Below, piece after piece: positions 1 through 10,731 of a DNA stretch of 10,731 nucleotides (within the stretch, counting starts at the first letter, position 1; each line of letters opens with the position of its first letter). Location: NCBI GenBank assembly GCA_016550405.1, contig JABXGX010000063.1, positions 1 to 10,731 of the forward strand, given 5' to 3'. Source of the stretch: an archaeon (GTDB lineage: Archaea; Asgardarchaeota; Hermodarchaeia; Hermodarchaeales; Hermodarchaeaceae). The translations under genes were made by a program, and so were the position numbers. The notes under the pieces are model-generated. The model had not been told where the DNA came from. It searched no databases and saw only the letters and a program-made list of their open reading frames with translations.

Positions 1-948
1 AACATGGATCTTCACGAAGAACTTGAACGCCGCCTTGCTAGATTCAAAAGCGCCGAAGCGAGCCTCGTCTACCAAACTGGCTTTGCGGCGAATGCTGGAC
101 TCATCCCACAACTCGCTGGAAAAGGCGATCTCATCATTAGTGATGAGTTGAACCATGGCTCTATTATTGATGGCGTCCGCCTCACTCGGGCTGAACGAGC
201 GATTTTCAAGCATACAAACGTACCTGATCTCGGGCGCGTCCTTGATGAAGCAAAAAAACATAAACCCGCCTATCGACGCATCCTAGTCATCACCGATGGC
301 GTCTTCAGCATGGACGGCGATATTGCCCCATTAGACCAAATCGTCAAAACCTGTAAACCTCATGGCGCCATGGTTTATGTCGACGATGCTCATGGCGAAG
401 CAGTTCTTGGTGAAGGAGGCCGAGGAATCGTCTCCCACTACAACCTCGACCATAAATCGGTTCATGTGGAGATGGGGACATTCTCGAAATCATTCGGAGT
501 GGTCGGTGGTCATGTCTCGGGAAGCAAGTGGTTACGGAAGTTTGCATTGAATAAATCCCGTACTTGGCTTCTTAGCGGTTCTCACCCCCCACCTGTGGCT
601 GCTGCCTGCATTGCGGCTATTGATGTCTTGGAGACCGAACCTCACCATGTGAAGAATCTTTGGAAGAACACCGAGAAATTCAAAGTTACTATGAATGAAT
701 TCGGTTTTAACACGGGGATGAGTGAAACCCCAATCATTCCGGTTATAATAGGTGAGAGTGAAAGCGCTCAGAAGTTCAGTGTACGGTTATTTGAAGAAGG
801 CGTCTTTGCGTTACCCATCATCTATCCAATGGTGGCGCGAGGCCAGGCACGGATTCGTGTGATTATGAATGCCGCGTTGACACAAGACGATTTGAACGAA
901 GCCTTAGTAGCCTTTGAAAAAATTGGCAAAGAGCTTAACATCATCTAA
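1..948 (+). CDS. kbl: Glycine C-acetyltransferase (2-amino-3-ketobutyrate CoA ligase)-like alpha-oxoamine synthase, 5'-truncated
   Basis: PLP-dependent fold-type I enzyme of the alpha-oxoamine synthase family, which condenses an amino acid with an acyl-CoA. KBL itself interconverts glycine plus acetyl-CoA with 2-amino-3-ketobutyrate in threonine breakdown, in the cytosol. Seen directly, counting from the Met at base 4: SDELNHGSIIDGVRL (46-60), TDGVFSMDG (97-105), the PLP-ring Asp/His motif VDDAH (126-130), the Schiff-base lysine Lys162 in GTFSKSFG, and the late GQARIR motif. The end, IGKELNII, resembles the KBL C-terminus. Family members have about 390-400 residues, so roughly 80 N-terminal residues lie upstream. 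The frame is open to base 1 and the Met at base 4 is internal, because DLHEELE aligns well inside the family. BioF-like or other acyltransferase specificity cannot be excluded. The family is certain, the substrate less so. Confidence 0.8.
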   Translation, partial: NMDLHEELERRLARFKSAEASLVYQTGFAANAGLIPQLAGKGDLIISDELNHGSIIDGVRLTRAERAIFKHTNVPDLGRVLDEAKKHKPAYRRILVITDGVFSMDGDIAPLDQIVKTCKPHGAMVYVDDAHGEAVLGEGGRGIVSHYNLDHKSVHVEMGTFSKSFGVVGGHVSGSKWLRKFALNKSRTWLLSGSHPPPVAAACIAAIDVLETEPHHVKNLWKNTEKFKVTMNEFGFNTGMSETPIIPVIIGESESAQKFSVRLFEEGVFALPIIYPMVARGQARIRVIMNAALTQDDLNEALVAFEKIGKELNII

Positions 949-1023
949 TACTGAATTATTCCTACCATAACAGCTATTTCAGGTAGATGTGAGGGAAGAT
1001 TAAAAACCCATATTCGAGTTCAA

Positions 1024-1031
1024 TTTATATT
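1024..1031 (+). promoter_or_regulatory. Candidate TATA box for the gelsolin gene
   Basis: TTTATATT lies about 56 bases upstream of the start codon at 1087, in the 138-base gap after the KBL-like gene. It fits the archaeal TATA pattern and predicts a transcript start near 1050-1055, with a leader of about 30 bases. A GGTGGA ribosome binding site at 1074-1079 is 7 bases from the ATG. Inferred from sequence only. Confidence 0.4.
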
Positions 1032-1086
1032 GGCATTGTGGGCAACCTATCGCCTACAGCAAGGCTCCTTTAAGGTGGAATGAAAC

Positions 1087-1692
1087 ATGGTTGATTTTCA
1101 GAAGTACCATATTCAGCGGGGTCACGTAATGCGGGTCCCTGATGATATGGCCAACGATTTTGGTGATGGTGACTGTTACCTTATTGATGCTGGTTCCATC
1201 ATTTACCTCTGGTGTGGCAGCAAAGCCACCGTTGACGAGCGCTTCATTGGCGCGGTTACCTCTGTATGGCGCGACCAAGACCGAAAAGGTGTTGCACGCC
1301 TAGTCACTGTTGAAGCTCGCAGTGAGCCCCCCGAATTCCTCGACCTCTTTGGTGGAACAATCAATATCACGGATCAGGACACCGAAGGCATCCTAAAAAA
1401 GGTCATCTTAGAAAAGCACGAATACAAGCTTTTTCGGCTCAACATCGTTGGTGGAGTTCATCTATTCATTGAGGTACCTCGCTCAAAAGAGAGCTTGAAA
1501 TCCGATGATGTGTACATCCTCGACACCTTTGATCAGATCTATATTTGGCGAGGAAACTCCTCGACAGGGCGAGAGAAATTCCATGCAATGCTGATCGCAC
1601 GTCGATATGATTATGAGAGAGCAGGTGCACAAGATATTGTTCTTGTGGAAGACGGCGAGGAAACCAAGGAGTTTCTCCAAGCACTAGAATAA
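1087..1692 (+). CDS. Two-domain gelsolin-like actin-regulatory protein
   Basis: Gelsolin-superfamily protein of 201 residues built from two gelsolin-like repeats. Repeat 1 (about 15-100) has GDCYLIDAGSIIYLWCG (28-44) and the typical EPPEFLDLFGG segment (80-90). Repeat 2 (about 112-201) opens with YKLFRL and has SDDVYILDTFDQIYIWRG (139-156), then EKFHAM and a closing EDGEETKEFLQAL, the classic gelsolin repeat ending. No signal peptide or membrane segment is visible, so it should be cytosolic. Eukaryotic relatives sever, cap or bundle actin, usually under calcium control. Two-domain gelsolins are known from Asgard archaea, where characterised examples act on actin. Acidic residues (D27, D29, D140, D141) sit where gelsolin repeats often bind calcium; this is inference. 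The ATG is supported by GGTGGA 7 bases upstream. It appears monocistronic. Confidence is high for the fold, moderate for the exact actin activity. Confidence 0.88.
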   Translation: MVDFQKYHIQRGHVMRVPDDMANDFGDGDCYLIDAGSIIYLWCGSKATVDERFIGAVTSVWRDQDRKGVARLVTVEARSEPPEFLDLFGGTINITDQDTEGILKKVILEKHEYKLFRLNIVGGVHLFIEVPRSKESLKSDDVYILDTFDQIYIWRGNSSTGREKFHAMLIARRYDYERAGAQDIVLVEDGEETKEFLQALE

Positions 1693-1806
1693 GAATTCAT
1701 TCAAGAATCCCCACTGGTTCTCTATAATTGTAGTGTTTGTAGGTGAATGGGATCAGTTGTAGTTTTAGCTTAGAAGCTTAGACGAGGTTAATATATTATT
1801 ATAATA

Positions 1807-1860
1807 GATATAAAACATATCATTTAGTCGATATAAAATAAAAAACATTCGGTTATAAAA
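1807..1860. repeat. Regularly spaced GATATAAAA repeats
   Basis: GATATAAAA occurs at 1807-1815 and again, identical, at 1830-1838; a one-mismatch copy GTTATAAAA lies at 1852-1860. Copy-to-copy distances are 23 and 22 bases, about two helical turns, so the copies face the same side of the DNA. AT-rich DNA makes short matches likely, but the regular spacing is notable. Each copy also resembles an archaeal TATA element. Confidence 0.4.
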
Positions 1861-1938
1861 TAAAGGTTAAGATTAATAATTTTGTATTTTAACAATATAT
1901 AATTATTTTTATATTAAACTTATTACATTAACTGATTA

Positions 1939-1964
1939 ATTTTTAATTACGTTCAATTAAAAAT
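1939..1964. repeat. Perfect 10-bp AT-only inverted repeat (hairpin)
   Basis: ATTTTTAATT (1939-1948) pairs perfectly with AATTAAAAAT (1955-1964) around a 6-base loop ACGTTC. An all-A/T stem is weak as RNA, so it may be a protein site or cruciform rather than a terminator. It lies about 160 bases before the start of the 136-residue protein gene. Confidence 0.4.
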
Positions 1965-2065
1965 GTAAAAGAAAAAATAACAAGATTCTAAAACTAATAG
2001 AAATATATTAATTCTTATCTGGATTAAACATTTTTCTTCTAATAGTTACAGGTATTGCATATGGA

Positions 2066-2073
2066 TTTTTATG
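2066..2073 (+). promoter_or_regulatory. Candidate TATA element for the 136-residue protein gene
   Basis: TTTTTATG lies about 50-57 bases before the ATG at 2123, a spacing consistent with a transcript start near 2095-2100. The whole region is AT-rich, so other TATA-like matches (for example near 2003-2009) cannot be excluded. Confidence 0.25.
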
Positions 2074-2122
2074 GTGCCATTTTCTATTTTTCCTACCAGT
2101 TGATTATCACTGGAGGGTTCAG

Positions 2123-2533
2123 ATGACCACACCAACAGCTCAACTTGAAGGATTTGTTGCTGACGTTCTGATTCCTCGGATAGACGAGCTAGCGAACGCT
2201 GCTTCCAATGGTGTGGACAATGAACAGCTTCGTGAATTATTCCGCGATAACATCTATGATGGAATAAAATTCTTTTACGAAAGGTGGACTCCTGTCTATC
2301 TTCCGATTCATGGCCAAAAGAAGACAAATCATGCAAGTCGAACCCTAGATAAGCTATTCCAAGATGTGACTACGGTTCCAGCTAAACAACTCCGCGAAGT
2401 ATTGGTGAAAGCGATTTGGTATCTGCTTTCCATTAGTCTTGAGGATATGGATAACGTTCCGGTCTTCCCCGATGAATTAACTTTCACTGAGTTACGCTCT
2501 GCGATCAAGAACGCCACGCGTCGAATTTCCTAA
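2123..2533 (+). CDS. Hypothetical 136-residue helical protein
   Basis: I do not recognise this protein. It has 136 residues, no signal peptide and no membrane span, and looks mainly alpha-helical and soluble. Visible blocks are an N-terminal helix with FVADVLIPRIDELANAA (11-27), a central NIYDGIKFFYERWTPVYLP (43-61), a basic stretch GQKKTNHASR (64-73), and a helix KQLREVLVKAIWYLLSISLE (87-106), ending in ATRRIS. No cysteines or metal-binding patterns are seen. Codon use matches its neighbours and the ATG has the best ribosome binding site in the window (GGAGGG at 2112-2117, 5 bases away), so it is very likely a real, well-translated gene. It stands alone between its own promoter region and a T-tract terminator. 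No function is assigned. Confidence 0.75.
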   Translation: MTTPTAQLEGFVADVLIPRIDELANAASNGVDNEQLRELFRDNIYDGIKFFYERWTPVYLPIHGQKKTNHASRTLDKLFQDVTTVPAKQLREVLVKAIWYLLSISLEDMDNVPVFPDELTFTELRSAIKNATRRIS

Positions 2534-2541
2534 AGAATCAG

Positions 2542-2565
2542 TTTTTTTTGTTGATTTTTACCTTT
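2542..2565 (+). terminator. T-tract terminator after the 136-residue protein gene
   Basis: A run of eight T (2542-2549) begins 8 bases after the TAA stop and is followed by TTTTT (2555-2559) and TTTT (2563-2566). Archaeal RNA polymerase terminates at such T-rich tracts without needing a stem-loop, and none is evident here. It separates this gene from the stress-protein promoter just downstream. Confidence 0.6.
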
Positions 2566-2580
2566 TGAACACCAATACAC

Positions 2581-2590
2581 TTTTTATACT
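2581..2590 (+). promoter_or_regulatory. TATA box of the tandem universal stress protein gene
   Basis: TTTTTATACT lies 40-49 bases before the ATG at 2630, predicting a transcript start near 2610 and a leader of about 20 bases that includes AGGAG (2616-2620), 9 bases from the ATG. Confidence 0.5.
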
Positions 2591-2629
2591 AACCCAACGT
2601 CATCATCGCAGTAATAGGAGTCGGGTACT

Positions 2630-3508
2630 ATGAGTTTCCTATCAACAAAAGAATGGACCGAACCTCAGATGACTCGAATTTTGGTTCCGGTTCAGGGCTT
2701 CCCTGGAGAAGCTAGTGGAATCCAATTTGCCTTCAGTCTTGCTGAATATTCGAAAGCTAAAGTTTCTCTTTTGCATTGTCGCGAAAGAATTCGTCGATCG
2801 AAATTGACCGAAGTCAACCCTCTGATCAAACTCGCTAAGAGCCTGGCAAAGAAGCTCAAAGTTCCCATTGATGAAGAGCAAATCACCCGAGTACGTGCCT
2901 CCGATGCGATTCTAAAATCCAGCAAAGAAGATTGTGATCTTATTGTAATGTCTGCTGCCCATACGCCTGTTCACAAACATCTTCTTGGATCAACGGCTCG
3001 TCGGGTTGCTCGGAAAAGCCATATTCCTGTTATTATCGTTGCTTCGTGGCTTGAAGATTATTCTAAGGGAAACAGTCGAAGTTATAACAGGATTTTGCTA
3101 CCGATTCGAAGCACACGAAAGGATCAGGTTGCTCTACGATTAGCTGCTGCAGTGAAAAAGAGTACTGCAGGCAAAGATGCCGAATTAATTGCATTAAATT
3201 TGACTAGGTTTCCTGCGGTGATGAATTCGGCACCTTTGGGGTCTCCAGAAATCAAGGTTGGGCGCGAATTGTTTATGGATGACATCTCGATTTTCACTGA
3301 ACAAACTGGTTTATCGCTTACGCCACAACATGTAGCGGCACAAAATGTTGGTGACGCTGCAATCGAGTTTGCTGAAAAAGAAAAAATTGATCTCATTGTT
3401 TTAGGGGCTCATCACAAACCAGGACGCATTGGTGGATTTCTGGGAACGGTTTCACAACAGATTGCTTCCGGCTCTTCAACTACGGTAGTCATCACATTCC
3501 TCCCCTAA
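2630..3508 (+). CDS. Tandem universal stress protein (two UspA domains)
   Basis: This is a 292-residue cytosolic protein with two Usp-like alpha/beta domains. Domain 1 (about 14-140) starts at TRILVPVQG and ends with DLIVMSAAH and HLLGSTARRVARKSHIPVII (117-136). Domain 2 (about 153-292) starts at NRILLPI and ends with DLIVLGAHHKPGRIGGFLGT (254-273) and STTVVITF. The domain 2 G-rich stretch resembles the ATP-binding motif of nucleotide-binding Usp proteins. Domain 1 keeps only the GST part, so it may not bind nucleotide (inference). Usp proteins respond to starvation, redox or energy stress and act by binding ATP/AMP or partner proteins. The Met at 2630 is preferred over the internal Met14 because AGGAG and a TATA box precede it. 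It is convergent with the kinase gene. Confidence 0.85.
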   Translation: MSFLSTKEWTEPQMTRILVPVQGFPGEASGIQFAFSLAEYSKAKVSLLHCRERIRRSKLTEVNPLIKLAKSLAKKLKVPIDEEQITRVRASDAILKSSKEDCDLIVMSAAHTPVHKHLLGSTARRVARKSHIPVIIVASWLEDYSKGNSRSYNRILLPIRSTRKDQVALRLAAAVKKSTAGKDAELIALNLTRFPAVMNSAPLGSPEIKVGRELFMDDISIFTEQTGLSLTPQHVAAQNVGDAAIEFAEKEKIDLIVLGAHHKPGRIGGFLGTVSQQIASGSSTTVVITFLP

Positions 3509-3533
3509 ACCAATTTTATCAATTAATTGGTTT
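3507..3533. terminator. Inverted repeat between convergent genes, candidate bidirectional terminator
   Basis: AAACCAATT (3507-3515) and AATTGGTTT (3525-3533) form a perfect 9-bp stem with a 9-base loop. The stem overlaps the end of the stress-protein TAA (3506-3508) and the kinase stop (complement of 3523-3525). The 14-base gap leaves no room for separate terminators, so one hairpin may protect or terminate both mRNAs. No long T tract follows on either strand. Confidence 0.45.
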
Positions 3534-4446
3534 GTTGATATTTATCTGCGATTCGAATGAAATCGTCAATCTGCTGAGCTGTGGGCAAGCCGTCTCGTCC
3601 ACCTGATGCTGTGATTTGTAGAGCTGCACAAGCAGCTGCACGTTTTGTAACATCTTCCAAGGGTAGGTCCTGATGGTAATAATGAATAAATCCTGCTGCG
3701 AAGGCATCACCTGCTCCGGTTGTATCTACGGCATCAACTTTGTACGCGGGTGTGTGAATGGCTGTGTCGGATGTGGCTGTGAAGGATCCGTTTTGCCCTA
3801 ATGTGACAGTCAGCACTTTGAGGTTCCCTTCTAATTCTGCTTGGACGTTCTTGAGTGTAGGTCTCTTATTGAATATGCGTTGGAAGACACCTTGATTCAT
3901 GAATACAATTGAAAACCGGCAAATCAACTCCCGCACTTCATCTAGCGGTTGCTTCGTAAGTTCCTCACCTGCGTCGATTGCTGACAGCGTTTTAAGGTCA
4001 TGACAAACTGATGCTAGTTGTCTAGCTACTGGAATAGAAACACTTGCGGCGTACGTTATATCAACATTTTTTAAAAGGGCTTTTGTGATACTTTGTGGCG
4101 AAAGCCGGGCGTTTGCTCCCCGGTATCGCAATTTCATGGTTTGCCCACCTTCTCCTACTAAAATAATGACAAGTCCTGTTGAGTAGTATTTTTCGAGGAT
4201 GACTCGAGAAGTGTCAACTTGCTCGTGTTGAAGGACTGTGAGAGCTTCACGGCCCTCGACGTCGTCACCGACATGTCCAAAAATTGCCACCTGCGAACCT
4301 AATCGAGCGAGACTTGTTGCGAAGTTGGCTGCAGCTCCTCCAGGATAGATTTTAAGGGTTTGGATGTTCATTTTTTCATCTGGAGCAGGGAGTCGTGGAA
4401 GAGTGCAAATCCAGTCCATGTTAATATTGCCGATCGCGCAAATCAT
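3523..4446 (-). CDS. PfkB-family carbohydrate/nucleoside kinase
   Basis: This is a 307-residue ribokinase-like kinase, normal length for the family, which transfers the ATP gamma-phosphate to a sugar or nucleoside hydroxyl in the cytosol. Visible features are the N-terminal substrate motif GNINMD (6-11), the PfkB signature 1 region YPGGAAANFATSLARLG (34-50), the loop GHVGDDVEGRE (57-67), and signature 2 DTTGAGDAFAAGF (241-253), with catalytic base Asp247 and the anion-hole GAG. No motif fixes the substrate; ribose, fructose, 2-keto-3-deoxygluconate or nucleosides are all possible. The ATG at 4446 has AAGGG 7 bases upstream and a strong TATA box (4491-4498, minus strand). It is divergent from the nurA-like gene and convergent with the stress-protein gene, so it appears monocistronic and unrelated in function to the cassette on its right. 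Confidence 0.88.
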   Translation of the reverse strand: MICAIGNINMDWICTLPRLPAPDEKMNIQTLKIYPGGAAANFATSLARLGSQVAIFGHVGDDVEGREALTVLQHEQVDTSRVILEKYYSTGLVIILVGEGGQTMKLRYRGANARLSPQSITKALLKNVDITYAASVSIPVARQLASVCHDLKTLSAIDAGEELTKQPLDEVRELICRFSIVFMNQGVFQRIFNKRPTLKNVQAELEGNLKVLTVTLGQNGSFTATSDTAIHTPAYKVDAVDTTGAGDAFAAGFIHYYHQDLPLEDVTKRAAACAALQITASGGRDGLPTAQQIDDFIRIADKYQQTN

Positions 4447-4490
4447 CGCGTAACCCTTGTCTTATGCTGATGCTGTTCCTCGGTAATATG

Positions 4491-4500
4491 TTTTTATATC
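4491..4500. promoter_or_regulatory. Shared or divergent TATA element between the kinase and nurA-like genes
   Basis: On the minus strand TATAAAAA (4491-4498) lies about 45-50 bases before the kinase ATG, a near-ideal archaeal TATA box. Read on the plus strand the same bases give TTTTTATATC, and no better TATA candidate is seen between there and the nurA-like start at 4568. It may therefore serve both directions, with a nurA leader of roughly 40 bases. The assignment to the kinase is firmer than to nurA. Confidence 0.5.
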
Positions 4501-4556
4501 CAAAGATGAATCCCGACAGCCTTTAGTAGGTTTCACGAAAGTACATGGATAGAGAT

Positions 4557-4561
4557 GGTGG
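4557..4561 (+). promoter_or_regulatory. Ribosome binding site deciding the TTG start of the nurA-like gene
   Basis: GGTGG sits 6 bases before TTG at 4568. An in-frame TAG at 4550-4552 rules out an upstream start other than through TGG codons, and no in-frame ATG occurs until about codon 170. The same GGTG core precedes several other genes here. Confidence 0.55.
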
Positions 4562-4567
4562 CTAGGT

Positions 4568-6487
4568 TTGACATCACGTATAAGTAAAAGTGTCCAACGA
4601 GTTGGTGATATTTTACGGGCAAGTGCCGAAGACCAAATCCAGGATTATTCGAACCGATTCGAAGCTTTACGAGGTCTCTACGATAGTTTCTTAAAAGATC
4701 TTATTTGCACTAATTTTTCATTTGCTGACGCTTACAAAATAGCTCAATCCTTTTTCGGCGAAACAACTGTCAACTTTGCTGCAGTTGATGGCACCCTCTA
4801 CGTTCAGCCACTTTTTGATCTATTAGTATTTTTTGCTGGGTCCTTTACATGTCGGGGCGCCCTAACCTTTCACCCAGATAAACCTCCTAGTGTCGACTAT
4901 CAGGGAAGTCTGACCAAAGGTACTGCTGCAGTATCCACAGTTGCCCCAGTGTACATCAATAAGGTCCCTGAAATTGATCAAGAGTTCTTTGATCCTGAAG
5001 ACGGAGAGATTGTCATTGAACGACCCCTTAGCGATCAGTATATCATCAATAATTCCAGCATCGCGGAGACTCTCATGACACTCTCTGAATATTTCCTTGC
5101 GTATCGCCTCGCGACTAGTCCGGTAGAAAAAATCAAAGTGCTCCTCTTAGATCGAACGCTAGCTGGTTCTTATTCCTCACTACTCTATGATACTGCACGA
5201 AGGTATGGGTGGAACCGAAATCTGGGAATGTTAGGTGTCATCATCGACGGTTCACCCATAACTGAACTAGACTTTTTGTATTGTCGCCATCGGATTTTGA
5301 ACGATACACTAAAGCTTCCCCCAGCCCGTGGGGACTTTCTTCGCCAAGCAGTATTATACCATCTCGAGCAAGCGCCGAATCCATTGCGGATTGATGCCAT
5401 CTGTGATCAACTAGAACTCAAGACTCCCGAACAATGCAAACGGGCTGAGACATACCTTCAGAAATCTGTACGAGAAGGTTTTGTTACGGAAAAGCGGGAC
5501 CACTATAAACTGAAAGAACCGTACAAGCAATCATGGCGGCGAATTACTCGACTAGTTCAACAAATTGGGAACCAAATCTTCTCAGAAACCTTATCAAAAG
5601 ACCCGCTAGTCAGTCACAACCGCCTTCAGGTTCGAAAAGGCGACCGATTCGCTTGGCTCAGCACAATAGATGTAGCATTTCTGACGCTTTTCTCGATGTA
5701 TTTGTTAATAGAGGAATGCTGGCGCCGGAAAATCCTCTTAATCGGAGTGACAAAGGATACAGCATCACGGGATTTCAAACGCCAACTTATACCCATACTT
5801 TGGCAGGCGAAGCTCTTAACCAAATCAAGCGCTCAACGCGCATTAGAACGAGCCCCAAATACTGATCGCATGATCCTTCAAAGTATCAGTCATTTTGCTG
5901 CCGATAAACTTCCAGTTCCTTGGGCAACAATCGAATACGATGCAGCATTTCGCACCATGGTCCCAGATCGAAATCGACCTCGAAGAGCCACTTATGTTGG
6001 TGGCGCACGTCGGAACCGAATTGGATTAGAACGCACTTTTCTAAAAAGTTACATCCAATTAACCGAGGCAAAAAGTGATTCTAAACTTCGGAGCAATGTC
6101 CTATTCATTGACCGTTTGAGTCATCCAGAATTTGATGGCGCTACTGCGACCTCGCACTATCAATTTAACCACGAATATGGCGCCGCAACGGAACCAATAC
6201 ATGTACATCTTTATCGAAACAACACCATCCTCAATCCCTTACAGACCCTAACCCTCTCAATCCTTTCAAGTCTTAGCTGTTCATCAATCCCTGAAGCATT
6301 TGGGCACAACAAACCTTTGATGATTGCAGACAAGGTGGCAAAGTTCCATCAACATACCTTCAGTAATGTCATTGCTGGAACAACCAACTGGATTTCTGTC
6401 CATCCCCATCTGCGGTCATTTATTTTCTATCTCTCAAGTTTTCGTGAACGCCGTTCACGAATTGAGGCCCATCGTCGTGGAGACTAG
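4568..6487 (+). CDS. nurA: NurA-like nuclease, long form with an inserted winged-helix-like segment
   Basis: NurA-type nucleases degrade DNA ends as 5'-3' exonuclease/endonuclease partners of the HerA translocase. Seen here: NFAAVDGTLY (69-78) with Asp74 matching the first catalytic Asp; VLLLDRTLAGSY (191-202) with Asp195 matching the second acidic motif; LIGVTKDTASRDF (391-403), like the NurA Lys strand; and a C-terminal NKPLMIADKVAKF (581-593), like the NurA PL..AH helix. Between motifs 2 and 3, residues about 257-317 (FLRQAVLYHLEQ, then paired helices, ending in EKRDHYKL) read like a winged helix. At 639 residues it is well above the usual 300-450. Where NurA proteins normally have His in the last motif, this protein seems to have Asp588. 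The start is TTG, which may lower translation. It is convergent with the methyltransferase gene, with a 10-base gap. HerA at the other end of the cassette supports the call. Confidence 0.7.
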   Translation: MTSRISKSVQRVGDILRASAEDQIQDYSNRFEALRGLYDSFLKDLICTNFSFADAYKIAQSFFGETTVNFAAVDGTLYVQPLFDLLVFFAGSFTCRGALTFHPDKPPSVDYQGSLTKGTAAVSTVAPVYINKVPEIDQEFFDPEDGEIVIERPLSDQYIINNSSIAETLMTLSEYFLAYRLATSPVEKIKVLLLDRTLAGSYSSLLYDTARRYGWNRNLGMLGVIIDGSPITELDFLYCRHRILNDTLKLPPARGDFLRQAVLYHLEQAPNPLRIDAICDQLELKTPEQCKRAETYLQKSVREGFVTEKRDHYKLKEPYKQSWRRITRLVQQIGNQIFSETLSKDPLVSHNRLQVRKGDRFAWLSTIDVAFLTLFSMYLLIEECWRRKILLIGVTKDTASRDFKRQLIPILWQAKLLTKSSAQRALERAPNTDRMILQSISHFAADKLPVPWATIEYDAAFRTMVPDRNRPRRATYVGGARRNRIGLERTFLKSYIQLTEAKSDSKLRSNVLFIDRLSHPEFDGATATSHYQFNHEYGAATEPIHVHLYRNNTILNPLQTLTLSILSSLSCSSIPEAFGHNKPLMIADKVAKFHQHTFSNVIAGTTNWISVHPHLRSFIFYLSSFRERRSRIEAHRRGD

Positions 6488-6497
6488 ATAAAATGCA

Positions 6498-7475
6498 TTA
6501 TGGATTTTCTGAACGATAGGTAATTTCTAGCCGGTCAATCACTTTTCGGCGTCGATGTGATTTTACCGCGTCGATGTTCGCTAGCTTGTTCTCAATAATT
6601 GGAATCAGTTTCTCATCAATTTCATAACCAATGCTGCTTCGATGTGTCTCCCTTGCGACTTTCATCGTCGTTCCAGTACCTAAAAAGGGGTCTACTACGG
6701 TATCACCCAATACTGAAAACATTCGAATTAAGCGATATGCAACTTCCTCGGGAAATGCTGCTGCTCGTCGGGAAACTTGTGGAATATACTGTCGTGCCCC
6801 TGGAAGTTGCCAAATTTGACTAAACCAGGTATTGCGTTCACTAATCCTATAATGGCTAGCATATCGAATCAAATCCTTCGGAGGAAAAAGGCGGGGCTGT
6901 CCTTTTCGAAAAAGCAATATAAATTCACAATCTTGTGTAACATAAGCATTTGGTGGAATGAATCCCGATCCTAAAAAGGCATTAGACCGCGTGGTAGGTT
7001 TCTTCCATAATATGTATGGGAGTGTTGTAAAGCCTATGGACTCGCAATGTTCTATGACTTTTACATGGTTAGGATACAGCTGAAAGTTATCATCGATTTT
7101 GCGAAGGGCATCACCAATGTTGATACATGCGATTCCCCCATCAACCAGAATCCGGAAGCATTCACTCCAAACCTGAGCTAGATAGATATGCATTGTTTGG
7201 AAGTCCTGGCAGCCCATCCTATTGAACAATTCGTCCCATAAATCAATCATCGGATATGGTGGGGACGTCACAATAAGATGAACTGAATCATCAGCGATTT
7301 CATACATGTGACGGCTGTCACCGATGATAACGTGATGGTTCGTTTCTGGGATTTCGAGAGGCCGACCTTTCAGCATCTTCGCTAGCTGCCGTTCAGGGTA
7401 TGATGTCGACTTGGCTTTCTTGTCTGGCTTCGTGTCTTGTTTTTCTAGCTCTGAATGCACGGTCCGACCATCCAC
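6498..7475 (-). CDS. TSPPY-type site-specific DNA methyltransferase (N4-cytosine or N6-adenine)
   Basis: SAM-dependent amino methyltransferase that modifies DNA bases at a specific sequence. Seen: a motif X-like HHVIIGDSRHM (47-57); catalytic motif IV TSPPY (70-74); and, late in the chain, FPEEVAYRLIRM (241-252) followed by the SAM-binding motif I DTVVDPFLGTGTTM (258-271) and SIGYEID (281-287). The IV-before-I order is that of the beta class, and TSPPY favours N4-cytosine, though N6-adenine is possible. The 325-residue length suits a stand-alone enzyme. No restriction endonuclease is adjacent. It is last in the minus-strand operon, 59 bases after coiled-coil protein B. The start is uncertain: GTG at 7475 has a purine-rich stretch almost touching it, and an in-frame GTG at 7460 has GGGTGG about 11 bases upstream. 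The first 30 residues are low-complexity and charged, so little depends on the choice. Confidence 0.87.
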   Translation of the reverse strand: MDGRTVHSELEKQDTKPDKKAKSTSYPERQLAKMLKGRPLEIPETNHHVIIGDSRHMYEIADDSVHLIVTSPPYPMIDLWDELFNRMGCQDFQTMHIYLAQVWSECFRILVDGGIACINIGDALRKIDDNFQLYPNHVKVIEHCESIGFTTLPYILWKKPTTRSNAFLGSGFIPPNAYVTQDCEFILLFRKGQPRLFPPKDLIRYASHYRISERNTWFSQIWQLPGARQYIPQVSRRAAAFPEEVAYRLIRMFSVLGDTVVDPFLGTGTTMKVARETHRSSIGYEIDEKLIPIIENKLANIDAVKSHRRRKVIDRLEITYRSENP

Positions 7476-7534
7476 CCTTCCATAACTGTTCTTCAGACTC
7501 TAAAGCCTTTGCCATCATATCAAGGGGGAAAGGG

Positions 7535-8269
7535 TTATATCGAAATCACTAATCGTGCAGTGTCAGACCCTGTGATTTCTAGAATTCCTTTGTTTTCCAT
7601 CTCCTTAAGAACACGGATTGTAATGGCAGGAGGTGACTTTGCAACTTTCTTAATCTCCGAAATGGGGACTTCTTTTTGATGAATCAACAACGCCAGAATA
7701 TCCAATTCAGTTGGTTCAAGGGCCTCGGATAAAAGAAAATCAGCAACAGGGTTATCCTTCTGCACCTGTTTGATCTGCTTCTTTGCAGCATCTAGTTCAT
7801 TCTTCTGTTTAGCCACTTCCTGATCCTTACTTGCTTGCAGCCGTCCGAGTTCCTTCTGTTTTTCATCTAACAAATTTTGCTGTGCTTCTAGGGTTGTCTT
7901 TTGCTTGAGTAACTCTTCTTCGACTGTCTCAATCCGCCCAGTCTTCTCCATGAGCGTCGCCTTCAAAACAGCAATTTGTTTTTGTTGCTCACTTAGTTCT
8001 GAATACATTCCTGCAATTTTGGCTTCCATAGCCGAACCAGATTCACGTAATTGAGTCAATTGTTCGTGACTATGGTTAATCAAGTTTTGTTGTTCTTCTA
8101 TCCGCGACTTGGATAACTCGAATTCTCGGTCAATGCGCGTCAGGGTTTGCAGAGTACTGCTTATCTCATTGATTAAAGTTAGCATTTGAGTTTTGAAAGA
8201 TTCACTCAAAGCTTGAAGCCGTGCTTGATTCTGCTCAAGGGCTAATTGGAATTGTTTAATCTCAGACAT
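7535..8269 (-). CDS. Coiled-coil protein B with C-terminal winged-helix-like domain
   Basis: This is a 244-residue cytosolic protein of unknown function. Residues about 1-170 are almost entirely heptad-like and Q/E/K-rich, for example IETVEEELLKQKTTLEAQ (113-130), predicting a long coiled coil. A linker KDNPVADF (171-178) leads to a compact end, 185-244 (EPTELDILALLI, then ISEIKKVAKSPPAITIRVL, then KGILEIT), which looks like a winged helix of the kind that binds DNA or mediates protein contacts. I place the start at the ATG at 8269, not the ATG at 8281, because GGTGA lies 5 bases before it while nothing suitable precedes the other. It begins 15 bases after protein A ends, so the two are co-transcribed. 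It resembles protein A in size and layout, suggesting an old duplication and a heterodimer (inference). SMC-, Rad50- or kinesin-type ATPase motifs are absent. Confidence 0.8.
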   Translation of the reverse strand: MSEIKQFQLALEQNQARLQALSESFKTQMLTLINEISSTLQTLTRIDREFELSKSRIEEQQNLINHSHEQLTQLRESGSAMEAKIAGMYSELSEQQKQIAVLKATLMEKTGRIETVEEELLKQKTTLEAQQNLLDEKQKELGRLQASKDQEVAKQKNELDAAKKQIKQVQKDNPVADFLLSEALEPTELDILALLIHQKEVPISEIKKVAKSPPAITIRVLKEMENKGILEITGSDTARLVISI

Positions 8270-8274
8270 GTAGT

Positions 8275-8279
8275 TCACC
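8275..8279 (-). promoter_or_regulatory. Ribosome binding site fixing the start of coiled-coil protein B
   Basis: GGTGA on the minus strand, 5 bases before ATG at 8269. It overlaps the alternative ATG at 8281, which makes that upstream start unlikely. Confidence 0.55.
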
Positions 8280-8284
8280 ATAAG

Positions 8285-9031
8285 TTACAAATCAATCGTT
8301 TTAGACACCTTAACCTGACCTGTGCCTTTGTCAAACTTGACAATTTTGTGTTCGGCCATCCGTTCGAGGATTTCTCGCACCTTGAATCGCCCAATAAATG
8401 TAGTCTTCTGTAAATGATCTAAAGTCGTGGTGTCTTTGCCTTTCAGTTCTATAGCTACTTTCGCCTCAGGCATTGTGATGATTCCTTCATTTAGCAAGTA
8501 GCGTAACGCTTTGTATTTCGCCTCTTGTGAAGCGGCTTCATTTCGCGCTTCATTGACTTCATCATTTAAGCTTTGCAATTGAGCTGCAAGCTTTTCATCA
8601 GAAGAACTGAGCTTCTCATCAACAATTCCCATATTTTTCTCCACTTCTCGGATGGCTCGTTCGGTATTCCTGATATCATCTTCGAGCGTTTCGAGCCTTG
8701 CTTCGGCTTCAGCTAATTCTCGCTGGAGCCTTTCACGTTCAGCTTTTGCTTCCACAATTACTTTTTGTTGTGCAGAGGTCGTGGATACTAATTTCATCCG
8801 TTCCTCACTTTCAGCTGATAATTGGCCTTTTAGCTCTGAAGCTTCACGGGTCAATTCCTCTTCTGTGGCTTGGCGTACTTCCCACGTTTCTTGAAGTCCT
8901 GTTGCCATTTCTTGGAGTTGGGCAATCTGGGTAAGAATGGCTGATAGTTCACGTTGGGTGGTTGCGATTAATTCTTCCACGATTGCTTGATTCTTTTGTA
9001 GTGATCCGATTAATGGTGAAATTCCAGTCAT
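8285..9031 (-). CDS. Coiled-coil protein A with C-terminal winged-helix-like domain
   Basis: This is a 248-residue cytosolic protein of unknown function and the first gene of the three-gene minus-strand operon. Residues about 10-175 form a long charged coiled coil, for example RLQRELAEAEARLETLEDDI (101-120). The C-terminus, 174-248 (KALRYLLNEGII, then TTLDHLQKTTFIGRFKVREI, then KIVKFDKGTGQVKV), reads as helices followed by a beta wing, a winged-helix-like fold. Its N-terminal QKNQAIVEEL aligns with EQNQARLQAL of protein B, and the lengths and domain order agree, so the two look like diverged paralogues. The start is ATG at 9031, supported by AGGTG 6 bases upstream, rather than the in-frame GTG at 9040, which overlaps that site. 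No Walker motifs are present, so it is not itself an SMC/Rad50 ATPase. It could act as a rod-like adaptor for HerA or NurA on DNA (inference). Confidence 0.8.
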   Translation of the reverse strand: MTGISPLIGSLQKNQAIVEELIATTQRELSAILTQIAQLQEMATGLQETWEVRQATEEELTREASELKGQLSAESEERMKLVSTTSAQQKVIVEAKAERERLQRELAEAEARLETLEDDIRNTERAIREVEKNMGIVDEKLSSSDEKLAAQLQSLNDEVNEARNEAASQEAKYKALRYLLNEGIITMPEAKVAIELKGKDTTTLDHLQKTTFIGRFKVREILERMAEHKIVKFDKGTGQVKVSKTIDL

Positions 9032-9037
9032 TGTAGA

Positions 9038-9042
9038 CACCT
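9038..9042 (-). promoter_or_regulatory. Ribosome binding site fixing the start of coiled-coil protein A
   Basis: AGGTG on the minus strand, 6 bases before ATG at 9031. The alternative GTG at 9040 lies inside this site. Confidence 0.5.
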
Positions 9043-9060
9043 ATCCATACCATAGATAAT

Positions 9061-9087
9061 TTCGTTTGGATTCGTTTCCAATTCGTT
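9061..9087. repeat. Three helically phased TTCGTT repeats, candidate operator
   Basis: TTCGTTT occurs at 9061-9067 and 9071-9077, and TTCGTTC at 9082-9088, at 10- and 11-base steps, so all three present the same DNA face. They lie between the operon TATA box and the protein A start, around the predicted transcript start, where a bound protein would block transcription. Confidence 0.45.
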
Positions 9088-9100
9088 CTCAAAACTCCAT

Positions 9101-9112
9101 TATCATATATTC
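9101..9112 (-). promoter_or_regulatory. TATA box of the coiled-coil/methyltransferase operon
   Basis: GAATATATGATA on the minus strand (complement of 9101-9112), about 70 bases before the ATG at 9031, predicts a transcript start near 9080 and a leader of about 50 bases. It is the best TATA match upstream of the operon. Confidence 0.45.
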
Positions 9113-9151
9113 CCAAAAGAGTTTTGCTGCACTTTTCTATTTAAATCAGGG

Positions 9152-9183
9152 TTTGAGGGCTCCAAATTCAAGGGCTCATTGAA
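9152..9183. repeat. Two AGGGCTC-centred semi-palindromes in the divergent promoter region
   Basis: TTTG-AGGGCTC-CAAA (9152-9166) is followed directly by TTCA-AGGGCTC-ATTGAA (9167-9183). The identical 7-base cores are 15 bases apart and each is flanked by complementary arms (TTTG/CAAA; TTCAA/TTGAA). They sit between the two divergent TATA boxes, a suitable place for a regulator controlling either side. Confidence 0.35.
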
Positions 9184-9220
9184 GAATACCTTTTGAGGTT
9201 TGCGTACTATGTCAACAGGA

Positions 9221-9227
9221 TTATATG
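9221..9227 (+). promoter_or_regulatory. TATA box of herA
   Basis: TTATATG preceded by AACAGGA lies 36-42 bases before the ATG at 9263, predicting a transcript start near 9250 and a very short leader of about 13 bases. Confidence 0.45.
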
Positions 9228-9251
9228 CCTTCTCACAAGAAGGATAACGTA

Positions 9252-9257
9252 GGGTGA
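9252..9257 (+). promoter_or_regulatory. Ribosome binding site of herA
   Basis: GGGTGA ends 5 bases before ATG at 9263 and is close to a perfect match to the archaeal GGTGA core, so it supports this start strongly. Confidence 0.6.
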
Positions 9258-9262
9258 AAATT

Positions 9263-10731
9263 ATGAGTCCGATTGATGATGCGCTACTAAAACAATATTT
9301 CACCGATTTTGATGGTCGCTTTAAAGCGCGTTTGAGTCATCTACGGGCGGGGCGAATCAGTGATGCTTGGCGGGAAAGCCAAGGGGTCCATGCTAAACAC
9401 ACAGGGATAATCAAGGTGGAATATCAAAAGGATCTCATGGGGCTCCTTGAGGAAGGAATGTTGGTTGCTATTCGGAATTACCGCGCTTTTCACCAACGAC
9501 AACCTCGCTTCACCCTTTTAGAAGTTGCAGCAATCTGGCCAAGTCATTTCGGATTAGGCGGACTTGCTGAACAAGCATATTATCCACTTCAATTTGAGAT
9601 AATCGAACAATCAGTGGTTGACTGGGAATCGGCAGACACCAGCACCATGATGATCCGGCTAAGTACCATTCCCATCAATTATGACTTGGTTTTATATCCT
9701 GACAAGGAACCGGATTTTCATAGAGGATTTAGTTATCCGATTCCCGCTGAAGAAGCTTTCATTGTGAATCGAGACCTCATCCACCTAATGTACAATAAAA
9801 GCATCATCAAAAACCTCCGAGTGCCTGAAAAAACCACAGCAAAGGCAAGGCGCGATCCTCGACTTGGTGTTTTAAAAATGTTCGAGGTTGCCAAAGAGGA
9901 TATCCCTCTATACATTGATTTTGAACGTCTCGTTAGGTACCATTTCGGAGTATTCGCTTTTACTGGTGGTGGTAAAAGCAATATGCTCTCAAATCTCATC
10001 CGCCGACTTATCTACCACACTCAGGACACCAAATTGGTTATTTTTGATGTCGCAAGTGAATATCCCTTTCTCCTTATGGATGTGTTAAATGATCCCAAAA
10101 TCCCTGCTCATATTATATTTGAAAATAAGATTGCTACTGCTGAGCAACTGGCCACATCCATTGTCCGGCCTCGCGATTATGAGGATAATCCAAAGGTCAC
10201 AAACGCTCTCAAAGGTCTATTCAATCGAGATATCATTGGTTATCTTGCGCGAGAATCCCGCTCCCGGATATACACTTATGGCACGATTTTTCGGGAACTC
10301 GATGATTTAGTTGAACAAAGTTCGGGACGTCCAACCTATCTAAATGCTATCAATCTGATTGAGAAGCAAGTTACTCAGTATCTCGCTGAAAATGATCACA
10401 AAGAAGAAGAACCAATCAATGCTGCCTTTGTTACGTTTCTCGATGGTGTCGCCCAAGATGCAGTAGCACAATTTCGTGTTTCTGATCGGTCTCAACTCCA
10501 TGCTTGGGCAACAACTCGGGCCAAAGCCATCAAAATCGAAGAATCCAGTGCTGAGACGGAAAAACCTGAATCACAGGATAAGAACGCCTTTACGATTGAC
10601 CAATTACGGTATTTGATTGAAGGGAACAACCGCCTCCTGTGCTTGAGCATTGCTGACCCGAATACTATTCGGCAAATTGTCATTTCTCTGACTAGTCAGA
10701 TTCTTTTTGGACGAAAGAAGCAGTTCCAAGT
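9263..10731 (+). CDS. herA: HerA-like DNA translocase ATPase, 3'-truncated
   Basis: This is a HerA/FtsK-superfamily ATPase that forms hexameric rings, pumps double-stranded DNA and stimulates NurA in end resection. 489 codons are visible; the gene runs off the window and perhaps 50-150 residues are missing. Residues 1-150 probably hold the N-terminal HAS-type beta barrel (LLEEGMLVAI, RFTLLEVAAIWP). The Walker A loop is AFTGGGKSN (232-240), with Lys238 and with Ala in place of the usual first Gly. Walker B is LVIFDVASEYP (258-268), with Asp262 and Glu266 matching the HerA D...E pair. A later strand, RLLCLSIADPNTIRQIVISL (457-476), matches the HerA sensor region. An acidic linker (about 425-440) may be a lineage insertion. 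It is divergent from the coiled-coil operon. The nurA-like gene lies at the far side of the cassette rather than adjacent, which is unusual. A defence-type HerA with another partner is the main alternative. Confidence 0.82.
   Translation, partial: MSPIDDALLKQYFTDFDGRFKARLSHLRAGRISDAWRESQGVHAKHTGIIKVEYQKDLMGLLEEGMLVAIRNYRAFHQRQPRFTLLEVAAIWPSHFGLGGLAEQAYYPLQFEIIEQSVVDWESADTSTMMIRLSTIPINYDLVLYPDKEPDFHRGFSYPIPAEEAFIVNRDLIHLMYNKSIIKNLRVPEKTTAKARRDPRLGVLKMFEVAKEDIPLYIDFERLVRYHFGVFAFTGGGKSNMLSNLIRRLIYHTQDTKLVIFDVASEYPFLLMDVLNDPKIPAHIIFENKIATAEQLATSIVRPRDYEDNPKVTNALKGLFNRDIIGYLARESRSRIYTYGTIFRELDDLVEQSSGRPTYLNAINLIEKQVTQYLAENDHKEEEPINAAFVTFLDGVAQDAVAQFRVSDRSQLHAWATTRAKAIKIEESSAETEKPESQDKNAFTIDQLRYLIEGNNRLLCLSIADPNTIRQIVISLTSQILFGRKKQFQ

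Follow-up and report, generated by a model that had tools for sequence, protein, structure and literature searches.

A divergent HerA-NurA pair interleaved with a methyltransferase/coiled-coil block in Hermodarchaeota: probably two independent units

The archaeal HerA-NurA end-resection complex is described from Sulfolobus and Thermococcus (PMC12977600). A HerA-type motor is likewise joined to a nuclease in the DUF4297-HerA anti-phage system (PMC11291478); the main texts of PMC11291487 and PMC12988326 mention HerA and NurA nowhere. The subject of this analysis is a HerA-NurA pair on contig JABXGX010000063.1 (assembly GCA_016550405.1) of an archaeon of the Hermodarchaeia. The whole stretch analyzed, positions 1 to 10,731, is termed the window. 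Five adjacent open reading frames (ORFs) at 4568..10731 proved to be real, and the identities assigned to them in an earlier sequence-only reading (nuclease, methyltransferase, two coiled-coil/winged-helix proteins and HerA) were right. That reading also took the five genes for a single module. We consider it probable that they are instead two independent, interleaved units, namely a divergent HerA-NurA pair and a block of methyltransferase and coiled-coil genes that lies antisense between NurA and HerA, a position it occupies only in Hermodarchaeota-type loci. The features are as follows.

4568..6487, + strand: long NurA-type nuclease, 639 amino acids (aa); NurA fold with a winged helix inserted at approximately residues 237-321
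6498..7475, - strand: beta-class amino DNA methyltransferase, 325 aa; SPPY motif, then DPFLGTGTT
7535..8281, - strand: coiled-coil A; long coiled coil and C-terminal MarR-like winged helix
8285..9040, - strand: coiled-coil B; single helix of ~178 residues and winged helix; precedes A in the same orientation with a 3 bp gap
9114..9126, no strand: palindrome CAAAAGAGTTTTG (CAAAAN3TTTTG), candidate operator upstream of coiled-coil B
9254..10731, + strand: HerA-type ATPase, N-terminal 492 aa; Walker A TGGGKSN; the remainder lies past the window end

Nine Hermodarchaeota-type loci were compared: those of the window and of G001, G002, G003, G084, G085, G086, G087 and G088 (G numbers denote genomes, and L numbers the loci or records used for comparison). 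All five genes, in the order NurA-methyltransferase-A-B-HerA, are present in only two, the window and G003, whose contig ends in a 52-residue HerA match. Two others, those of G001 and G002, show the order NurA-methyltransferase-HerA. The NurA of G002 is divided between two contigs, and a diverged coiled-coil pair resides elsewhere in that genome. The methyltransferase is kept with neither NurA nor HerA in five of the nine loci, in four of which the coiled-coil pair adjoins it. Thus, G084, G085, G086 and G087 retain the order pfkB-methyltransferase-A-B, and searches of these genomes for NurA and HerA gave no match at the thresholds used. The fifth locus, in G088, has the methyltransferase beside a 287/290-aa gene that is 88% identical to the neighbor of NurA in G002, and a diverged coiled-coil pair lies ~3.8 kb away. 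The expectation that the five genes would be conserved together in relatives therefore largely failed, and the five-gene module does not hold, since the methyltransferase and coiled-coil pair persist without NurA and HerA.

Both missing genes have left scars in G085. Beside the methyltransferase, the terminal 36-38 codons of NurA survive (E 1e-17 against G003), and beyond the coiled-coil genes the start of HerA is fused to the final ~30 codons of that gene (E 4e-8 against G002). From late NurA to the end of the methyltransferase/coiled-coil A and B block, the G085 DNA matches that of G003 (88%). A second tandem coiled-coil pair follows, beyond which the match to G003 resumes across the HerA start; the G085 sequence then runs straight on into the HerA end, as in G002. 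NurA and HerA were thus removed by separate internal deletions that spared the middle. No convincing NurA or HerA remnant was detected by tblastn in the G084, G086, G087 and G088 loci (best E 0.025). In trees of the methyltransferase, of A, of B and of a gelsolin-domain protein encoded upstream of NurA, G003, which has the pair, and G085, which has lost it, are sisters (97/98 to 100/100); in that of the methyltransferase, G084 and G086 are the window's nearest group (99/100). The gelsolin tree is without G086, where only a more distant paralogue was found. Because these sisterships mix pair-bearing and pair-less loci, presence of the pair is scattered.

A scan of public genomes yielded 78 loci, and the lineage occurs in Bathyarchaeia and Asgard archaea. 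In 69 of the 78 loci, HerA comes directly after NurA in the same direction, no more than 300 bp away and with nothing between; the two ORFs overlap in 64, and the overlap is exactly 29 bp in 44. The HerA search was blank in six loci. Four of these (L034, L061, L066 and L077) break off within NurA or right at it, and the remaining two are L006 and L068, the latter of which carries a HerA start after all. In three further loci the two genes are apart: the methyltransferase separates them in L001 and L054, whereas L076 is counted here only on account of a broken NurA ORF. Clustering of neighbors across the 78 loci placed NurA in 78 and HerA in 71, and produced no third recurrent partner: the next clusters, of 25, 23 and 18, read as pyruvate:ferredoxin oxidoreductase subunits, with Pfam support. 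Inspection by eye found no mre11/rad50-like cluster common to at least four of the 78 loci. Individual loci deserve mention. In L006, NurA is broken into two ORFs and HerA was not found in 21.9 kb, possibly reflecting decay of the pair in a bathyarchaeon. In L001 (G001), positions 192-5151 hold a NurA frame with a stop 16 codons short of its end and a HerA spread over two frames, which is either decay or an assembly error. Two records titled bacterial, L053 (a Desulfobacterales metagenome-assembled genome) and L055 (an unnamed bacterium), carry this NurA-HerA pair through binning error or transfer.

Presence and absence were scored in 227 Asgard genomes (the phylum of G003) at E <= 1e-20 for NurA, 1e-40 for HerA, 1e-40 for the methyltransferase and 1e-10 for B. 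The Fisher tests that follow are uncorrected for kinship. Long NurA is present in 45 genomes, G021, G091, G100 and G132 being among the weak or partial cases, and long-lineage HerA is present in 40, all of which are within the 45 (p 2e-39). The methyltransferase is depleted relative to NurA (p 9e-6), occurring in 11 of the 45 NurA genomes. Coiled-coil B, found in 31 genomes, is present in just three of the 45, and is enriched together with the methyltransferase (29/31, p 4e-7). Three observations demonstrate NurA-HerA coupling: the genes are adjacent, they co-occur, and both have been deleted in G085. The earlier proposal that these two proteins belong together stands.

The long NurA carries conserved AVDG (D74), LLLDR (D195) and TKDT (K396-D397) motifs, and these four residues are invariant across 23 sequences. 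In the comparison of long with short NurA, the KDS stretch aligned profile to profile over 36 columns only, and the D motifs were matched by eye. The window NurA has no match to PF09376 at E <= 1. A NurA of the same family, from L073, passes this profile with 27.5 bits against a cut-off of 21, and four of the long NurA genes score above the cut-off and two below it. A PDB sequence search with NurA returned three matches, none named a nuclease (best E 0.15). At E <= 1e-3, 1105 NurA-like proteins were found, and the 120 of them that were listed have no precomputed Pfam domain. The closest relatives among named records are from Hermod/Hermodarchaeota archaea (L001, L054 and L068). The winged helix within the fold probably adds a DNA contact, judging from known complexes.

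The window HerA contains a PF01935 domain with Walker A. The Walker B motif is supplied by the full-length HerA of L054, which passes PF01935 and shows FHFDEAQ and RQGRKYG by eye. In a tree for which the over-long ORF second_G002 was trimmed to 520 residues, long-lineage HerA branches as a separate clade, distinct from the two short kinds (100/99, with a long branch between). The trees of long NurA and long HerA attach the Hermodarchaeota pair weakly and differently, and, since they disagree in this way, transfer is not claimed as its source.

Searches with PF09376 and PF01935 over 20 genomes located a canonical nurA-herA-mre11-rad50 operon, away from the long pair, in all three Hermodarchaeota genomes checked (G001, G002 and G003); mre11 and rad50 of G003 were also matched by NCBIfam models under curated cut-offs. 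Because a separate canonical operon exists in three relatives, the long pair represents an additional, divergent lineage. This bears out the suggestion that the pair is non-canonical, as does the separate branch of its HerA. Neither mre11 nor rad50 is beside the pair in the visible window, as the sequence-only reading had noted, and the far side of HerA is out of view. The locus thus differs from the end-resection complex (PMC12977600) in a NurA of ~640 aa with an inserted winged helix, in a pair without mre11-rad50 seen adjoining, in its HerA branch, and in having relatives that hold the canonical operon besides the long pair. The short full-length NurAs examined in Hermodarchaeota and G010 have 356-445 aa, except for one ORF of 465 aa. 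A second short HerA-NurA pair resides in L088 7308-10036 (G003) and L090 6336-10062 (G002), bringing these genomes to three pairs each. No PF09376 gene was found in five of the 20 genomes with this profile, which misses many long NurAs, and only one DUF87 gene is present in G012. In some bathyarchaea, HerA-NurA may therefore be represented by the long pair alone, and it would then hardly be a mere accessory.

All ten methyltransferases compared carry TSPPY and DPFLGTGTT (DPFLGSGTT in the G087 variant), the motif order of beta-class enzymes. The same order, SPPY then DPFxGxGT, is present in the beta-class DNA methyltransferase 2zie (match E 5e-35), presumably TTHA0409. The enzyme is predicted to perform N4-cytosine methylation, which is its probable activity. 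It is 36% identical to the N4-cytosine methylase of Sulfolobus virus STSV1 but is cellular instead. A viral origin was rejected: only 111 of 50,697 phage records match, all at less than 60% identity, with 36% the best. The family is found in 122 of the 227 Asgard genomes, with many copies 45-52% identical to that of the window, and is a candidate for a conserved Asgard DNA mark. A search of open-licence PMC literature found nothing on Hermodarchaeota together with DNA methyltransferase.

Both coiled-coil proteins end in winged helices resembling those of MarR-type regulators. The winged helix of A matches PF01047 (E 8e-5). The model of B comprises one long helix and a winged helix closest to MarR regulators; its best Foldseek match is 3cdh at ~1e-3, with none at E <= 0.001. 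The pair shares with MarR-type regulators the C-terminal winged helix and a palindrome upstream, and differs by a coiled coil of ~180 residues in front and by its tandem two-gene arrangement. Homologue lists comprise 37 proteins for A (the window's own included) and 29 for B; organisms are named for four and six of these, respectively, and all are Asgard. Of the 30 loci retrieved with B, 29 have two coiled-coil ORFs in tandem, and the other, L116, ends where the second gene would stand. The methyltransferase is next to the pair in five of the 30, among which the weaker B matches may be distant paralogues. None of these 30 excerpts, with at most ~1.5 kb of flank, contains NurA or HerA, and those of G003 lie just outside.

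The palindrome CAAAAN3TTTTG is exact upstream of B in five of six loci (window, G003, G084, G086 and G087) and has one mismatch in G085; the diverged pairs of G002, G023 and G088 showed no such site ahead of them. The second, diverged tandem pair of G085, between B and the HerA scar (L129 10178-11688), has a one-mismatch palindrome upstream (L129 11735-11747). Genomes contain three to five exact copies of the site, compared with three to ten of a reversed control, and the count exceeds the control only in G084 (four versus three). A global regulon was therefore rejected, and the counts leave the site as a candidate for a local operator only.

In the two-unit reading, the HerA ring would act as a pump that drives double-stranded DNA into a NurA dimer for degradation, as in known complexes, from two genes that usually overlap and are co-directional. 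The pair might perform extra end-processing or clear foreign or broken DNA. The other unit would be a methyltransferase with no recognized nuclease partner, joined in some Hermodarchaeota by the Asgard tandem coiled-coil/winged-helix pair. A and B most likely form a hetero-oligomeric regulator of their own operon, B-A-methyltransferase, through CAAAAN3TTTTG; where NurA is missing, pfkB comes next in the same orientation. This unit would have settled antisense inside the HerA-NurA pair in Hermodarchaeota, the methyltransferase presumably first and the coiled-coil pair second. Several lineages would later have lost NurA and HerA together, with the second unit staying.

Several observations weigh against two independent units with repeated loss. 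Four or five joint losses are suggested by small gene trees with open forks, and scars are present in only one of the five pair-less loci; for the four scarless loci, we infer loss rather than never having had the pair. Absence is judged from metagenome-assembled genomes: the loci themselves are contiguous, incompleteness of the genomes is possible, and a short remnant would score under the search thresholds. The methyltransferase and coiled-coil B do co-occur in 29 of 31 genomes, and the best PADLOC profile of the methyltransferase is that of a type II restriction system (E 1e-103). Moreover, the methyltransferase lies between NurA and HerA in all four pair-bearing Hermodarchaeota loci (window, G001, G002 and G003). 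A lineage-specific link is possible, yet synteny from a single common ancestor would explain this arrangement.

The last two points, together with patchy presence among close relatives, fit a Hermodarchaeota restriction-like system, with the methyltransferase supplying a mark on host DNA and HerA-NurA degrading DNA that lacks it. Retention of the methyltransferase in five loci that lack the pair is the direction expected if restriction is lost and an orphan methyltransferase remains, and the best PADLOC match of HerA is 'Type III coevolved' HerA (E 8e-14). However, HerA follows NurA immediately in most of the 78 loci, and 34 of the 45 NurA-bearing Asgard genomes have no methyltransferase at the threshold used. 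PADLOC HerA models match only weakly, and NCBIfam repair HerA scores slightly above anti-phage HerA (28.3 versus 26.4 bits, both far under cut-off). To our knowledge, NurA nucleases have no sequence specificity, which also counts against restriction. A defense scan of 129 neighbors of 15 NurA-HerA pairs, hand-picked from the 78 loci and mostly on long contigs, matched 20 PADLOC families at E <= 1e-10, including type II methyltransferase, viperin, AriA, PDC and MADS. Each had one member, and the commonest Pfam domains were those of pyruvate:ferredoxin oxidoreductase. Isolated defense-like neighbors are present but no family recurs, and a defense island was rejected. The absence of recurrent defense neighbors and the NurA-type fold of the nuclease also distinguish the locus from DUF4297-HerA (PMC11291478). 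A restriction-like link is thus unlikely, and co-occurrence argues against the methyltransferase as a self/non-self mark for the pair, as had been proposed.

A small chance is given to the pair being a diverged copy of the end-resection machinery in ordinary repair, its insertion and loss being neutral. The folds are the same, the neighbors are housekeeping genes, and the canonical set in the checked Hermodarchaeota genomes would provide redundancy that permits loss; the genomes in which no PF09376 gene was found, and the single DUF87 gene of G012, point the same way. Against this stand the separate HerA clade, the winged helix inserted in NurA, and retention of the long pair beside the canonical set, which hints at a distinct task. 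It is quite doubtful that the pair is a third, Mre11-independent HerA-NurA lineage directed against foreign DNA, captured in Hermodarchaeota by the methyltransferase and an autoregulated coiled-coil switch, and that the destructive half was shed repeatedly while the protective half stays. A single new DNA-processing complex of five genes, with the coiled-coil pair replacing Mre11-Rad50, is very improbable. Adjacency in two species (window and G003) and a low-score resemblance of A and B to SMC/Rad50/JetC arms favor it, but profile searches detected no ATPase head domain or family in A and B, which end in MarR-like winged helices and do not belong with SMC/Rad50-like proteins. Furthermore, Mre11-Rad50 is present in three relatives, and tandem A/B pairs occur elsewhere in Asgard genomes with no NurA or HerA in the excerpts, leaving the bridging role once suggested for them unsupported.

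The genes that precede NurA in the window encode a glycine C-acetyltransferase-like protein (our own reading), the gelsolin-domain protein (PF00626), a 136-aa product that belongs to no family, a universal stress protein (PF00582) and a kinase of the PfkB type (PF00294). The gelsolin-domain protein (window 1087-1692) has 87-90% identity in four relatives, and a second, more distant paralogue exists in six of ten genomes searched. In G003, the gelsolin and stress-protein genes are on another contig.

The analysis removes a tempting but false five-gene system. HerA and NurA are missing together on either side of an insert left intact, and one genome bears the scars of both deletions; this natural experiment reveals which genes depend on which. 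The analysis also brings to light a large HerA-NurA lineage in Bathyarchaeia and Asgard archaea, and a family of paired Asgard regulators with a testable candidate operator.

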